Assembly: GCF_001592755.1 (NCBI RefSeq) | Contig: NZ_LUKF01000001.1 | Coordinates: 348,029-412,028 of the forward strand | Reading direction: 5' to 3' | Length of the DNA: 64,000 bases | Source: Bdellovibrio bacteriovorus | GTDB taxonomy: Bacteria; Bdellovibrionota; Bdellovibrionia; Bdellovibrionales; Bdellovibrionaceae | Shown here: piece after piece, positions 21,175-26,002 of the stretch | Numbering within the stretch: position 1 is the stretch's first letter | Layout of the letters: each line of letters starts with the position of its first letter | The notes under the pieces: generated by a model | Database searches by the model: none | Told to the model about the DNA's origin: nothing | The model's input: the letters and a program-made list of their open reading frames with translations, nothing else | Made by a program: the position numbers and the translations under genes

Positions 21175-21597
21175 TTATGGCCACTGACTTTGCAAAAGAT
21201 TTTTTCTGTTCTGAAGAGAATTATCAATACCCACTTTGCAGGCATTAGATAGCTCTGTGGTGTGATCACGTAAACACTTGATCATGCGACCACCTCCGGC
21301 ACTGACATCGTCGCAGAATTTCAAGAGGTCGTTGTTACACGCGCCTTGAAGCTCTACCACCATCTCGTGGAGTTTTTTATTTCTCGCACGACATTCAGGT
21401 GAAAGTTTGTCTTTGTTTTCGTCTAAACATGTTAAAAAAGCTCCCCCGCCCGGCTCCGCATTCTGGCAATACTTTTGAAGGTCCGATACGCACGGATCCA
21501 AAAGTGTTCGATTGTTTTGTGCTAATACTTCGATGGAAAAAATAAATCCCAGAGCTAAGGACAGAGTGAGCATGCCAGCAATGACTTGCTCCTTCAT
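21175..21597 (-). CDS. Exported protein with GLG1-type cysteine-rich repeats
   Basis: A 140-aa exported protein with a signal peptide (about residues 1-26). The mature part holds two copies of a repeat with the pattern C-x5-KYC/KFC...GGG...CL, seen as DLQKYCQNAEPGGGAFLTC and LLKFCDDVSAGGGRMIKC. This is the cysteine-rich GLG1 (Golgi apparatus protein 1) repeat found scattered in bacterial secreted proteins. Regular cysteines suggest disulfides in the periplasm or outside. It has AAGGGGGATCA before the ATG. Partners and function are unknown. Confidence 0.75.
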   Translation of the reverse strand: MKEQVIAGMLTLSLALGFIFSIEVLAQNNRTLLDPCVSDLQKYCQNAEPGGGAFLTCLDENKDKLSPECRARNKKLHEMVVELQGACNNDLLKFCDDVSAGGGRMIKCLRDHTTELSNACKVGIDNSLQNRKNLLQSQWP

Positions 21598-21748: not shown

Positions 21749-22840
21749 TTAAAAATAGTAATGCATCATTAAGTAGGCATAATCTTCGAAATCGTCCCCG
21801 ACAATAGAGATCTTCTTTTTTGTATACAAGCCTTCAAACTCGAAATGCGGGCGCGGATAAAATAGAAATCCGGGGCCGTAACTTTCGAATTTCGATTTGT
21901 CGTTACTGAAGTCACTTTGCGAATACTCTTGCACGAATTGCGCGTGAATTCCTTTGTAAAACTCGTATCCATATTTCGAAAACTGGTAAAGTCCGTACTG
22001 AGTTCTTTGCGTCGTGGCTTGATGCCTGTTTTGATAATCAGCTTCTGCAAGAATATAGAATTTTTCAGTGAATCCTAAAACGGCGTGAAGGCCCAGGATC
22101 TGCCTATTCTGAGTATCACTAGTGCCCAACCAATAACTTGCGCCCACGCGATACGAATCAGCGATTGTGTAATTCAGCTGAGTGGCCACCGCCGTTTCCA
22201 CTTCACTTACCGAGGCACTTTTTACACTCTTAGAAAGAGTAGAAACAAAATTCCATTTTTCACCACTCCACATGCCCTCTAAAGCATCACGCTCGGTGCC
22301 CTGGTTAAAACCCAGATTGGCTCTCGTCACCATGGTGTGTTGCGGGATGTTTAAACCAAAAACCGGAATAAAGCGGCCGGCACGCACCGTCAGCTCGTCA
22401 AGTATTTGATACATTATGTAGTAACGAGTTGCGATGGGTTCGACCTTCCAATCAGAATTCAGCTTTCCGTAAAAGAGATCGAGGGTCCACTTACCCAATG
22501 TCACCGCAAGTTCTATCCCCGCTTGCATGGGAATAGTTCGACCTTCTTTGACGGTCGCGGATTCATGATGAAACTGCAAAGCACGTACGTCGCCGCCCAC
22601 CTGCAACCATTGATTGAGCTTTTCATTATCTAAGGCGCCATAGAAGGAACGCGCTTCTTTTTCCGTCCCCCATGTAGATAGAACTTCGCTAGAGATAGCC
22701 CGACCATAAGGTGTTAACAAGCCTCCTCCACTTGGAGAAAAGTGGCAGGCCGTGCAGTTTACGTAATGATGACGAATCATTTCTGGAAAAGCGTATGCCT
22801 TTGTCGCCAGAGAAATTGCAATAAAAAGTATTAATTTCAT
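21749..22840 (-). CDS. Outer-membrane beta-barrel with N-terminal haem c motif
   Basis: A 363-aa protein with a signal peptide (about 1-17). Right after it is the haem-c motif CTACH (Cys29, Cys32, His33). The rest is alternating polar/aromatic beta strands and ends in Phe, as outer-membrane barrels do. The combination suggests a porin with an attached haem or other bound group at the periplasmic mouth, which could take part in electron transfer across the outer membrane. This is inference. It is the last gene of a three-gene operon with a YceI protein (zero-base gap) and a di-haem lipoprotein. Confidence 0.75.
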   Translation of the reverse strand: MKLILFIAISLATKAYAFPEMIRHHYVNCTACHFSPSGGGLLTPYGRAISSEVLSTWGTEKEARSFYGALDNEKLNQWLQVGGDVRALQFHHESATVKEGRTIPMQAGIELAVTLGKWTLDLFYGKLNSDWKVEPIATRYYIMYQILDELTVRAGRFIPVFGLNIPQHTMVTRANLGFNQGTERDALEGMWSGEKWNFVSTLSKSVKSASVSEVETAVATQLNYTIADSYRVGASYWLGTSDTQNRQILGLHAVLGFTEKFYILAEADYQNRHQATTQRTQYGLYQFSKYGYEFYKGIHAQFVQEYSQSDFSNDKSKFESYGPGFLFYPRPHFEFEGLYTKKKISIVGDDFEDYAYLMMHYYF

Positions 22841-23407
22841 TTACTCCTCACGCGTGATGAATTCATTGATGAGTACTTGCACTTTCACGACATCCGCCAC
22901 TTTGATTCCCAGATAAGACGGGATATCAATCTTGAAATCAGAAATTTTAATCTCAAATCGAGCTTCGGTTTTAAGTTTTTCCGAAATGCTGAGGGTTCCT
23001 TCCACCTCTTTTTCCACACCATGCAAGTGAAGAAGTCCTTTGAATGGATGATCTTGAAGTTTTGCATTCTGCGGATTCCACGAAGAAGGCAAAGAAAGAT
23101 CTTTGATGATCAGCTTTGCTTGAGGATACTTTTTAACCTCAAGATATTTTTCTTTCATGTGTTCATTGCGAAGATCGATACCGGTATCTAAAGTCTCAAG
23201 CGCGAAGTTCATCTCTCCTTGGACTTTTGAATCTGCTAAAGTCAAAATTCCACTAGGTCCCTGTGCCTGTCCTTTAATCTTCATCATGCTGGGTTTTCCA
23301 ATAGCTTCAAACTGAACAGAACCTTGAGAAGGCACCGACTTCATTTCTATAGCAGCCAGGGCTGGCAGATTGAAAAGCGCGATTATAATGATGATGATTG
23401 ATTTCAT
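22841..23407 (-). CDS. YceI-family protein
   Basis: A 188-aa periplasmic protein with a signal peptide (about 1-18). The lipocalin-like YceI fold is shown by FEAIGKPSMMKIKGQA near the start, MKEKYLEVKKYPQAKL in the middle and HGVEKEVEGTLSI later. YceI proteins bind isoprenoid chains and are often found beside cytochromes b561 or c. Here it sits between a di-haem lipoprotein and a haem-motif barrel, so a quinone or lipid carrier role in electron transfer is possible but inferred. The next gene starts right after its stop. Confidence 0.85.
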   Translation of the reverse strand: MKSIIIIIIALFNLPALAAIEMKSVPSQGSVQFEAIGKPSMMKIKGQAQGPSGILTLADSKVQGEMNFALETLDTGIDLRNEHMKEKYLEVKKYPQAKLIIKDLSLPSSWNPQNAKLQDHPFKGLLHLHGVEKEVEGTLSISEKLKTEARFEIKISDFKIDIPSYLGIKVADVVKVQVLINEFITREE

Positions 23408-23416
23408 AATTCCTCC

Positions 23417-24100
23417 TTAAGGTTTTCTTTGTGAAAATTCAGGAGCGCCCGCAGCGATCCAATCTAAAATAAGTTTCTTTTGTTCTGGAGTAAGAGTCGT
23501 ACGTCGAGGCATGGAGCCATCGCGTATCGTAGCGTCGACATCGGCGATATTAGAAAGAACATTTTGATATGTTTCTAAATTTACGCCTCCGCGATTGGTG
23601 GGGGCGGAGTGACAGTTCAAACACTTGGGTTCGACGACCAGTGTCCTGACCGTGAGCCAATCTAAAGAAGGTCCCACGACTTCTTCTGGAGGCATATCCG
23701 GTGGAGGAGCAGGGGTCGGTGCTTGCACCGGAGGATTTTCTGTCACAGTTTCTGGCGCGCCAGCTTCAATCCACTTATTGAGAAGCGCCTTTTGCCTCGC
23801 GCTAAGCGGTTGCCGATTGAGAGGCATAGAGTTATTCGCCACAGTACTTTGGATCGCTGCGATTTCTGCTTTGACGTTGGCGTAAGTCTCTAGATTGACA
23901 CCGCCACGATTGCCTCCCGCAGAGGAGTGGCATTCCAGGCATTTCGGCGCGATCACCTCGGACATGACAATAGCAAAGTCCACTTGTCCTGCGCCAACGT
24001 TGCCGTCATCCACCACCGCTGAATCTTTACTGATCTTGTAATGGCAGCCGGAAAAGACAGAAAACATGCTGATAATCAGCAGCAGATATGAAAATTTCAT
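23417..24100 (-). CDS. Di-haem c-type cytochrome lipoprotein
   Basis: A 227-aa exported lipoprotein with lipobox FSGC (Cys19). It contains two tandem homologous cytochrome units, each with CxxCH (54-58 CLECH and 160-164 CLNCH), then NRGGVNLETY and a SMP methionine that may be the sixth haem ligand, and finally KWIEAGAPE or DWIAAGAPE. The units are joined by a proline-rich linker. The pattern fits planctomycete-type cytochrome c domains. It opens an operon with YceI and a haem-motif barrel and probably carries electrons in the periplasm. Confidence 0.85.
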   Translation of the reverse strand: MKFSYLLLIISMFSVFSGCHYKISKDSAVVDDGNVGAGQVDFAIVMSEVIAPKCLECHSSAGGNRGGVNLETYANVKAEIAAIQSTVANNSMPLNRQPLSARQKALLNKWIEAGAPETVTENPPVQAPTPAPPPDMPPEEVVGPSLDWLTVRTLVVEPKCLNCHSAPTNRGGVNLETYQNVLSNIADVDATIRDGSMPRRTTLTPEQKKLILDWIAAGAPEFSQRKP

Positions 24101-24199: not shown

Positions 24200-26002
24200 A
24201 TGTCTGAAATTACTAAAAATAAGACATCAAAGCAGCGACTGTCAGAGCTCTTCTTTCTTGGGCACTACACCACTATTTTACAAATCTATAAAGACCACCC
24301 CTTAAGCCTCGCGGAAAAAGACATTCCGTTTCTGATCGGTGCACTTTCGTTTCTTGGTAAGACTTTAGAGGCCGAAGAAATTTTCAAAACACGGCAAGCG
24401 AGCTTTTCAGAAAAAGAACAGGCCGCCTCTTTGTTTTATTTAGGCGTGGGTGTTGCTCGTAAATCGAAATACAAAAAGGCGCGAAGATTCTTCCGCGAGA
24501 ATCAAAAGCGTTTCGGCAAGCACGATCAGGCCGAGATTTCCTTTTACACTTATCAAGGCATTGCGTTTTATTTGTATTTCACGGGGCAATTCTTCCGCAG
24601 CGAAAAGTTTGCCACCAAAGCCTTACGACTTGCCGTGCGCGCAGAAAATCCGCACATCAAAGTTCTAGCACAAGATTTATTAGCGCACACTTTAGTGCAA
24701 ACCGGTCGCGTTTATTCTGGTTTGGAGCTTTTGAAAGAGGCCCACGATATCGCTTTGAGACTTGGGAACGACGCCTTCGCCTCGGCCACACAAGTTTCCA
24801 TTTTACTTTATGAAGCGACTTACGGCCATCGTCCCGAGTCCATAGTTCCCGATCTAGAAAAATGTCTTAACGACTTAAAACCTCAAGATAGTTATTCTAA
24901 ATCCAATGTCGTCCTGGAATTAGCTCGCCAAAAAACTTTGCGAGGCCTTTGGAAAGACGCCGAAACTTTATTAAACTTGCAAGCTCCCGTTATTTTTTCG
25001 AGTGAAAACCGTCGCCAAGAGATTGTCTTAAACTTGCGCTGGGCAGAGCTGGCTTATCTTCGCGGTCAAACCGTTTTAGCCTGGCAATATTTGCGAGGAG
25101 CCAATCTTCGTTTAAATCAAGAGGCCGACAAAAATTTCGCGATTCAGATTCTAGGTCTGGAACACAAAATTCTGACAGAACAAAATAATCCTTCGGCACT
25201 GGAAAAGAAAAAACAGTTACTTGAGCTAAGTCGTTCTTTTTCCAGTAAAATAAATCGCAATATGCTTGCGCGCCGGCAGTGGATTCAAGAAAAAGATTTC
25301 TCTGAAGATGACCATATTCATACGCTTCTTTCGCAAATTGGTGATAACTCGGGCTTCGAGCTGATTCATAAATCAGGCTATTACTCGTGGTACTACAAGT
25401 GCCTTCCTTTGCAAAAAGGCGTGAACTACTTGGTTTTAGGGCTTGCTAAGAATCGGGCCGTGACGTTCTCTACAGATGGTATTGAAGTGGTAAAGCTTGC
25501 GGATTTTTCTGCGCGAATACTTGAAGTTTTAAAGCAAGGGCCGCTTGATAAAGCTATGCTCGTCGAAAAAGTCTGGGGTTATGAATATCATCCTTTGCGC
25601 CACGATAGTTTGGTTTATGCGGCCATGAGCACGCTTCGCCGAAACTTAGGAAGCAAACACACTTGGATTCAAACTTTGGATACAGGCTACCAATTAGAAA
25701 AGAACGTCAACATCCTGCAGCTCCGAGGCTCGATAGGTGAGTCTAAGAATTCAGGAAGCATGGTTTTAAAAAGCTCTTCTTTGCGTCCTGTTGATGCGGA
25801 ATTAAACTACCGCCAGCTTCAGGCTTTGGATTATTTGCAAGAAAACAGGTTCCTAAGCACGCGTCAGTACAAGGATTTATTTAAAACTACAGAAATCACG
25901 GCCTGTCGCGACCTTGCCGCTTTAAATAAAAAAGGCCATGTGGTAAGAATCGGGTTCGGCAGAGCCACTCAATACACCTTGGCTCAGGGAGATCGAAAAT
26001 GA
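24200..26002 (+). CDS. TPR protein with two C-terminal DNA-binding domains
   Basis: A 600-aa cytoplasmic protein. Residues 1-360 are TPR-like helices. About 410-495 form an OmpR-type winged helix (MLVEKVWGYEYHPLRHDS, then STLRRNLG). The last 75 residues form a second winged helix of the DeoR/Lrp-like sort (LSTRQYKDLFKTTEITACRDL). No receiver domain is present. The tail overlaps the start of a small exported protein by four bases (ATGA), so the two are coupled. It resembles the regulator at 12838-13941 in overall plan. Targets are unknown. Confidence 0.85.
   Translation: MSEITKNKTSKQRLSELFFLGHYTTILQIYKDHPLSLAEKDIPFLIGALSFLGKTLEAEEIFKTRQASFSEKEQAASLFYLGVGVARKSKYKKARRFFRENQKRFGKHDQAEISFYTYQGIAFYLYFTGQFFRSEKFATKALRLAVRAENPHIKVLAQDLLAHTLVQTGRVYSGLELLKEAHDIALRLGNDAFASATQVSILLYEATYGHRPESIVPDLEKCLNDLKPQDSYSKSNVVLELARQKTLRGLWKDAETLLNLQAPVIFSSENRRQEIVLNLRWAELAYLRGQTVLAWQYLRGANLRLNQEADKNFAIQILGLEHKILTEQNNPSALEKKKQLLELSRSFSSKINRNMLARRQWIQEKDFSEDDHIHTLLSQIGDNSGFELIHKSGYYSWYYKCLPLQKGVNYLVLGLAKNRAVTFSTDGIEVVKLADFSARILEVLKQGPLDKAMLVEKVWGYEYHPLRHDSLVYAAMSTLRRNLGSKHTWIQTLDTGYQLEKNVNILQLRGSIGESKNSGSMVLKSSSLRPVDAELNYRQLQALDYLQENRFLSTRQYKDLFKTTEITACRDLAALNKKGHVVRIGFGRATQYTLAQGDRK

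Follow-up and report, generated by a model that had tools for sequence, protein, structure and literature searches.

The window analysed here is a stretch of 64,000 nucleotides from Bdellovibrio bacteriovorus, and it carries on its minus strand, from position 24100 down to 21749, three adjacent genes for exported proteins. The first (23417–24100, assigned from the open reading frame and its translation) encodes a 227 aa di-haem c-type cytochrome lipoprotein that displays the lipobox FSGC, as read from the sequence, and two haem motifs, CLECH at residues 54–58 (23927–23941, minus strand) and CLNCH (23609–23623, minus strand); its Pfam matches to Cytochrome_CBB3 (30.3 bits, cut-off 27) and PSCyt1 (28.9 bits, cut-off 22) both lie above threshold. 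The second gene (22841–23407, minus strand) follows after 9 bases and encodes a 188 aa YceI-family, periplasmic lipocalin-like protein (PF04264, 65.9 bits, cut-off 23.7, E 6.7e-18). The third (21749–22840, minus strand) follows with a gap of 0 bases and encodes a 363 aa haem-motif porin, in which a signal peptide ending in AYA (judged by eye) precedes the motif CTACH at residues 29–33 (22742–22756, minus strand) and a barrel of 16 strands, as modelled by AlphaFold2, that ends in Phe. An earlier note on this DNA had described the spacing of the three genes, the two CxxCH units of the first protein, the YceI identity of the second, and the haem motif and terminal Phe of the third, and the open reading frames and domain matches bore out each of these descriptions. 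No profile of Pfam or NCBIfam, Porin_O_P (PF07396) included, matched the barrel itself at E<=1.

Upstream of the operon and divergent from it lies a 600 aa regulator-like gene with TPR and winged-helix features (24200–26002, plus strand), which matches HTH_DeoR above the cut-off (25.1 bits) and Trans_reg_C below it (24.6 bits). Homologues of this gene lie no further than 4.5 kb from the barrel in 14 of the 89 close loci, so for some members of the family its product may control the set. On the other side, 151 bases downstream of the barrel and on the same strand, a gene (21175–21597, minus strand) encodes an exported 140 aa protein with cysteine-rich repeats (PF00839, E 1.3e-16); a 140 aa open reading frame also adjoins the set in a 96% relative (L039). 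Genes resembling lon, clpX and clpP, recognised by eye, neighbour the operon. Promoter and terminator scans were near the shuffle expectation (6 against 4.3 and 4 against 3.6, respectively), so we draw no claim from them.

The barrel was modelled with AlphaFold2 using a ten-sequence alignment (mean pLDDT 69.7, pTM 0.75), and the model places 16 strands within residues 79–362; a run on the barrel sequence alone (pLDDT 33.2) was discarded in favour of this one. Structure prediction of the barrel together with its N-terminal segment, as the earlier note had proposed, thus succeeded for the barrel, while residues 1–52 fall under pLDDT 50 and the position of the haem segment is consequently not predicted. 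The solved folds that VIA-align 2 matched best were OprP (Z 23.7, rmsd 3.0 over 287 residues) and OprO (Z 23.6). Among the matches listed, many general porins lie within about 1–2 Z of OprP, so the fold does not single out one porin subfamily. The best 50 fold matches listed include no haem protein, which by itself does not argue for absence. In agreement with the fold, the Porin_O_P profile weakly matches 9 of 40 barrel family members (best E 1.1e-4). Sequence searches of the Protein Data Bank gave weak matches alone for the barrel (OmpX, E 0.089; Porin O, E 0.5), nothing at E<=0.01 for the operon YceI protein, and for the operon cytochrome an unconvincing match to MenC (E 0.036).

Homologous neighbourhoods were taken from the listed matches in three rounds, of 100, then 20 (ten of which are weak matches from a sister family) and then 60. 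Exactly one CxxCH is present per barrel in 120/120 sequences of the main set, and the motif was found in 57 of the 58 evaluable barrels among the further 60 loci, which amounts to 177 of 178 evaluable homologues. Within the later 60, the motif lies inside the first 180 residues in 55; it is at residue 300 of a longer open reading frame in L223 and becomes visible in L224 once the reading extends upstream of the called start, while L208, a fragment in the last part of an unrelated open reading frame, and L210, truncated by a contig end, were left out of the 58. The earlier note had named homologues lacking CxxCH as the observation that would count against its reading, and a single one came to light, L207 (4893–5924, plus strand), a true full-length homologue that is otherwise similar. 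No YceI gene and no cytochrome were seen by eye within the 10.9 kb examined around L207, and in this single case the loss of the haem motif accompanies the loss of the partners. As judged from these alignments, CxxCH is a hallmark of the barrel family, beyond what chance would give.

Nine residues are invariant in the 120 aligned barrels, namely C29, C32, H33, G38, Y45, M105, G155, H168 and G297. Met105 (codon 22526–22528, minus strand) and His168 (codon 22337–22339, minus strand, in the long loop 158–183) were once favoured as haem ligands; by eye, the haem-less L207 retains the equivalents of both, so they may instead be structural, and each is best described as a candidate distal ligand or structural residue.

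The earlier note had also suggested a search for the same three genes together elsewhere. Within 4 kb of the barrel in the 89 close loci, a YceI gene is found in 77, a related cytochrome in 74 and both in 64; YceI is missing from 12 and the cytochrome from 15, with some loci cut by contig ends, and the loci that have a cytochrome without YceI include L065, L076, L089 and L105. In 69/89 the gene immediately upstream of the barrel, on its strand, encodes YceI, with a median gap of 0. The genome of the window has 6 YceI genes in 3.66 Mb, from which we calculate that a YceI gene would lie near the barrel by chance in about 2% of cases. Of the 22 loci from a divergent clade of paralogues, 14 have both YceI and a cytochrome within 4 kb, the genes often being in other orientations or on opposite strands. 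In a tree of 60 YceI sequences, many inner branches of which are weak, those of the paralogue clade share one branch (15 rows, support 100/99). The four other YceI proteins of the window's genome fall together with the E. coli protein, and the cassette YceI proteins mostly stand apart from this group; three second copies encoded in cassette loci sit beside it.

Several additional genes were observed around the relatives. A 560 aa open reading frame with 21 CxxCH motifs (L055, 6066–7748, minus strand) adjoins the three-gene set and is a possible multihaem electron carrier. In L095, L100, L102, L104 and L106 the set is preceded by open reading frames of about 860–880 aa that are relatives of the operon cytochrome, and the two that were read (L095 and L104) have four CxxCH motifs each and are lipoprotein-like. 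In L118 a frame resembling LspA, or signal peptidase II, lies just upstream of a paralogue-type barrel, and in L223 one is in frame with such a barrel within a 654 aa open reading frame; genes of similar length occupy this position in several relatives.

A search with the window's barrel recovered relatives in 126 of 191 Bdellovibrionota genomes, and a 40-sequence barrel profile matches 116 of 147 relatives. The close form is patchy, since certain genomes of the same genus hold the distant paralogue alone. The window's genome also encodes this paralogue (C2:87652–88722), which is 24% identical to the barrel, bears the motif CITCH and lies close to genes for a YceI protein and a haem lipoprotein. 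A genome-wide scan with close-relative patterns matched solely a Bacteriovorax contig, and a plasmid search with the window's barrel returned nothing significant (best E 2). The ten weak-match loci (L174–L183) belong to a sister family of other, longer haem barrels of 351–430 aa, eight of which share the motif ARPEYAVRHxxxxCTACHVSPxGGGPR and align with the main family (99.8% probability, E 1.2e-28). A related cytochrome open reading frame is present in 6/10 of the sister loci and YceI in 0/10, which raises the possibility that cytochrome and haem barrel form the core and that YceI may be a trait of one branch.

The family profile was also run against IMG/VR, where it recovered nine contigs, or eight after removal of a near-copy (L167–L172, L194 and L195). 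In 8/8 the haem barrel has a YceI gene on its strand at a distance of at most 1.5 kb, confirmed by Pfam in the six tested; a related cytochrome is present within 4 kb in 7/8. Phage genes, often for lysis or recombination, are found in the same flanks in 6/8 contigs, neighbours having been examined for all but L171 and L172: tail sheath (L167), amidase and endonuclease (L168), RecE-like and Sak4-like (L169), endolysin (L170), RecT and exonuclease VIII (L194), and amidase and RecE-like (L195). Phage cargo genes usually sit beside lysis genes, and the placement of the haem-barrel set resembles that. The L195 barrel is 34% identical to its nearest bacterial relative in the 191 genomes and is therefore not a recent pickup from those sampled. 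Seven of the eight phage barrels form a weakly supported group (61/96) in the barrel tree, and L194 sits elsewhere on a long branch. Neither the window's barrel nor that of L170 had a match in 50,697 phage records. Most phage contigs with the set also encode a protein of 489–628 aa with one CxxCH and no assigned family. The best viral fold match to the barrel is a predicted phage "phosphate-selective porin O and P" (BFVD A0A8S5S2G8), and phage-borne porins may be more general. In a literature search that covered few subscription journals, we found no earlier report of the YceI and haem-barrel set in phages, nor one joining YceI with Bdellovibrio or its outer-membrane cytochromes, and this absence is weak evidence.

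The earlier note had called a haem motif on the barrel itself uncommon, and this needs qualifying, both by the presence of the family in 126/191 genomes of the phylum and by the precedents of Cyc2 and Cyt572. According to the accessible part of PMC8406198, Cyc2 is a one-haem cytochrome-porin that oxidises Fe(II), has 16 strands and is closest to OprO/OprP, and its cytochrome domain is proposed to sit as a plug in the periplasmic opening of the pore. The likeness to our barrel covers the signal peptide, the single N-terminal CXXCH, the 16 strands, the OprO/OprP fold, a periplasmic cytochrome partner and a haem plug expected on the periplasmic side (PMC8406198, accessible part). The haem segments are also loosely similar, with PxxxR before and GGGxLxxYGR after the motif. 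This comparison rests on described motifs and architecture rather than on a sequence profile, and it also brings out differences. Cyc2 has AXPXFAR[Q/K][T/Y] and PXL where the barrel family has PxxIRxGYxxCxxCHxSPxGGGxLxxYGR, and most confirmed Cyc2 proteins have at least 400 aa while the barrel family is mostly of about 360–390 aa (PMC8406198, same portion). Indeed, the signature P.FAR[QK][TY] upstream of CxxCH was found in 0/120 barrels, as was P.L 3–5 residues past it, and we therefore describe the barrel as Cyc2-like in its working and not as a Cyc2 protein. Unlike Cyc2, the barrel family has YceI directly upstream and is present in phages; YceI does not appear among the Cyc2 partners described in the available portions of PMC8406198 and PMC10654088. 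The set further resembles MtrCAB/PioAB in combining a barrel with cytochromes for outer-membrane electron transfer (PMC8406198, in part), from which it differs by its 16 strands, the haem motif on the barrel itself and the lack of a decahaem protein; against the 26 strands and decahaem cytochrome of the MtrCAB type, we found 16 strands and 2 haem motifs in the operon cytochrome. Porin_O_P (PF07396) proteins such as OprP and OprO are alike in fold, and to our knowledge they have no haem segment.

The barrel has the architecture of Cyc2, for which the role of one-haem cytochrome-porin is proven, and our leading reading of the operon is therefore an outer-membrane electron route; we read the barrel as a fused cytochrome-porin of a new form, related in kind to Cyc2. 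A coincidental CTACH on an ordinary porin is a highly improbable explanation for these data; the otherwise similar L207 would fit it, yet the motif and its invariant surroundings are kept in all other evaluable homologues, and the one exception also lacks the partner genes. We consider it unlikely that the set is a true Cyc2-type oxidase, in which Fe(II) would enter the pore and reduce the haem and electrons would pass to the lipoprotein cytochrome. The shared architecture and the loosely alike haem segment speak for such an enzyme, whereas the absence of both signature motifs and the lack of YceI among described Cyc2 partners argue against it. Similarly improbable in our judgement is a pore for uptake or export of a hydrophobic molecule (isoprenoid, quinone or lipid) ferried by YceI, with the haem as a structural element or sensor; it would suit the lipocalin-like, carrier nature of YceI proteins (PMC9113575, partial text) and the substrate-selective porin fold of OprP/OprO, although a c-type cytochrome in 74/89 close and 7/8 phage loci points to redox work.

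The main rival, which we take seriously though as less likely than the electron route, is antioxidant repair. Here YceI, holding ubiquinol-type or lipid ligands, would quench lipid peroxyl radicals at the outer membrane, and the haem barrel and cytochrome would recycle or drain it without any extracellular acceptor. The accessible text of PMC9113575 describes such a role for the YceI lipocalin BcnA, which together with the cytochrome b561 LcoA protects envelope lipids against lipid peroxyl radicals, and states that an isoprenoid or ubiquinone-8 is bound in the majority of the YceI structures solved. The two systems share a YceI lipocalin gene conserved beside a haem-protein gene, and they differ in that the partner of BcnA is an inner-membrane b561 while the haem partners here are a c-type lipoprotein and an outer-membrane barrel (PMC9113575, same text). 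That YceI is the most constant partner (77/89 close and 8/8 phage loci), and that the cassette YceI proteins mostly stand apart in the tree, also favours repair. What it leaves unexplained is why a pore should carry haem, why the cytochrome persists in YceI-less loci and why the sister family has cytochromes but YceI in none of its ten loci.

Returning to the electron route, we propose that the three genes probably form a miniature electron-transfer device. A c-type haem would be attached to the barrel in the periplasm, a cytochrome c assembly protein (PF01578) being encoded in the window's genome, and the haem segment would plug or line the pore opening on the periplasmic side, the arrangement put forward for Cyc2. 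Once inside the pore, a small redox substrate could exchange electrons with the barrel haem, the di-haem lipoprotein would relay electrons in the periplasm, and YceI, its cavity filled by an isoprenoid or quinone, may act as a mobile, lipophilic partner linking the haems of the outer membrane with the quinone pool of the membrane or with oxidised lipids. In its specific form, a compact outer-membrane redox module built around a one-haem cytochrome-porin with a periplasmic cytochrome and a YceI lipocalin, we put this proposal at an even chance. The earlier note had suggested a route across the outer membrane or to an extracellular acceptor; the conserved set, the exported cytochrome, the haem motif of the barrel and the Cyc2-like architecture agree with it, while YceI fits quinone or lipid-peroxide chemistry equally well. 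More tentatively, the set could be a phylum-wide and phage-mobile unit of one-haem porin, quinone-carrying lipocalin and small cytochrome lipoprotein, an outer-membrane mirror of the lipocalin/b561 pair that phages might carry in order to alter the envelope redox state or the surface of infected cells.

If the electron route holds, the idea of a one-haem cytochrome-porin would no longer be confined to iron oxidisers and would take in a large group with predatory members, and YceI proteins, whose role is debated, would gain a constant outer-membrane partner. The same set is seen in uncultivated phages as well as in bacteria. Being small, the set could be expressed in full in a laboratory strain, which opens the function of YceI and of single-haem porins to experiment.
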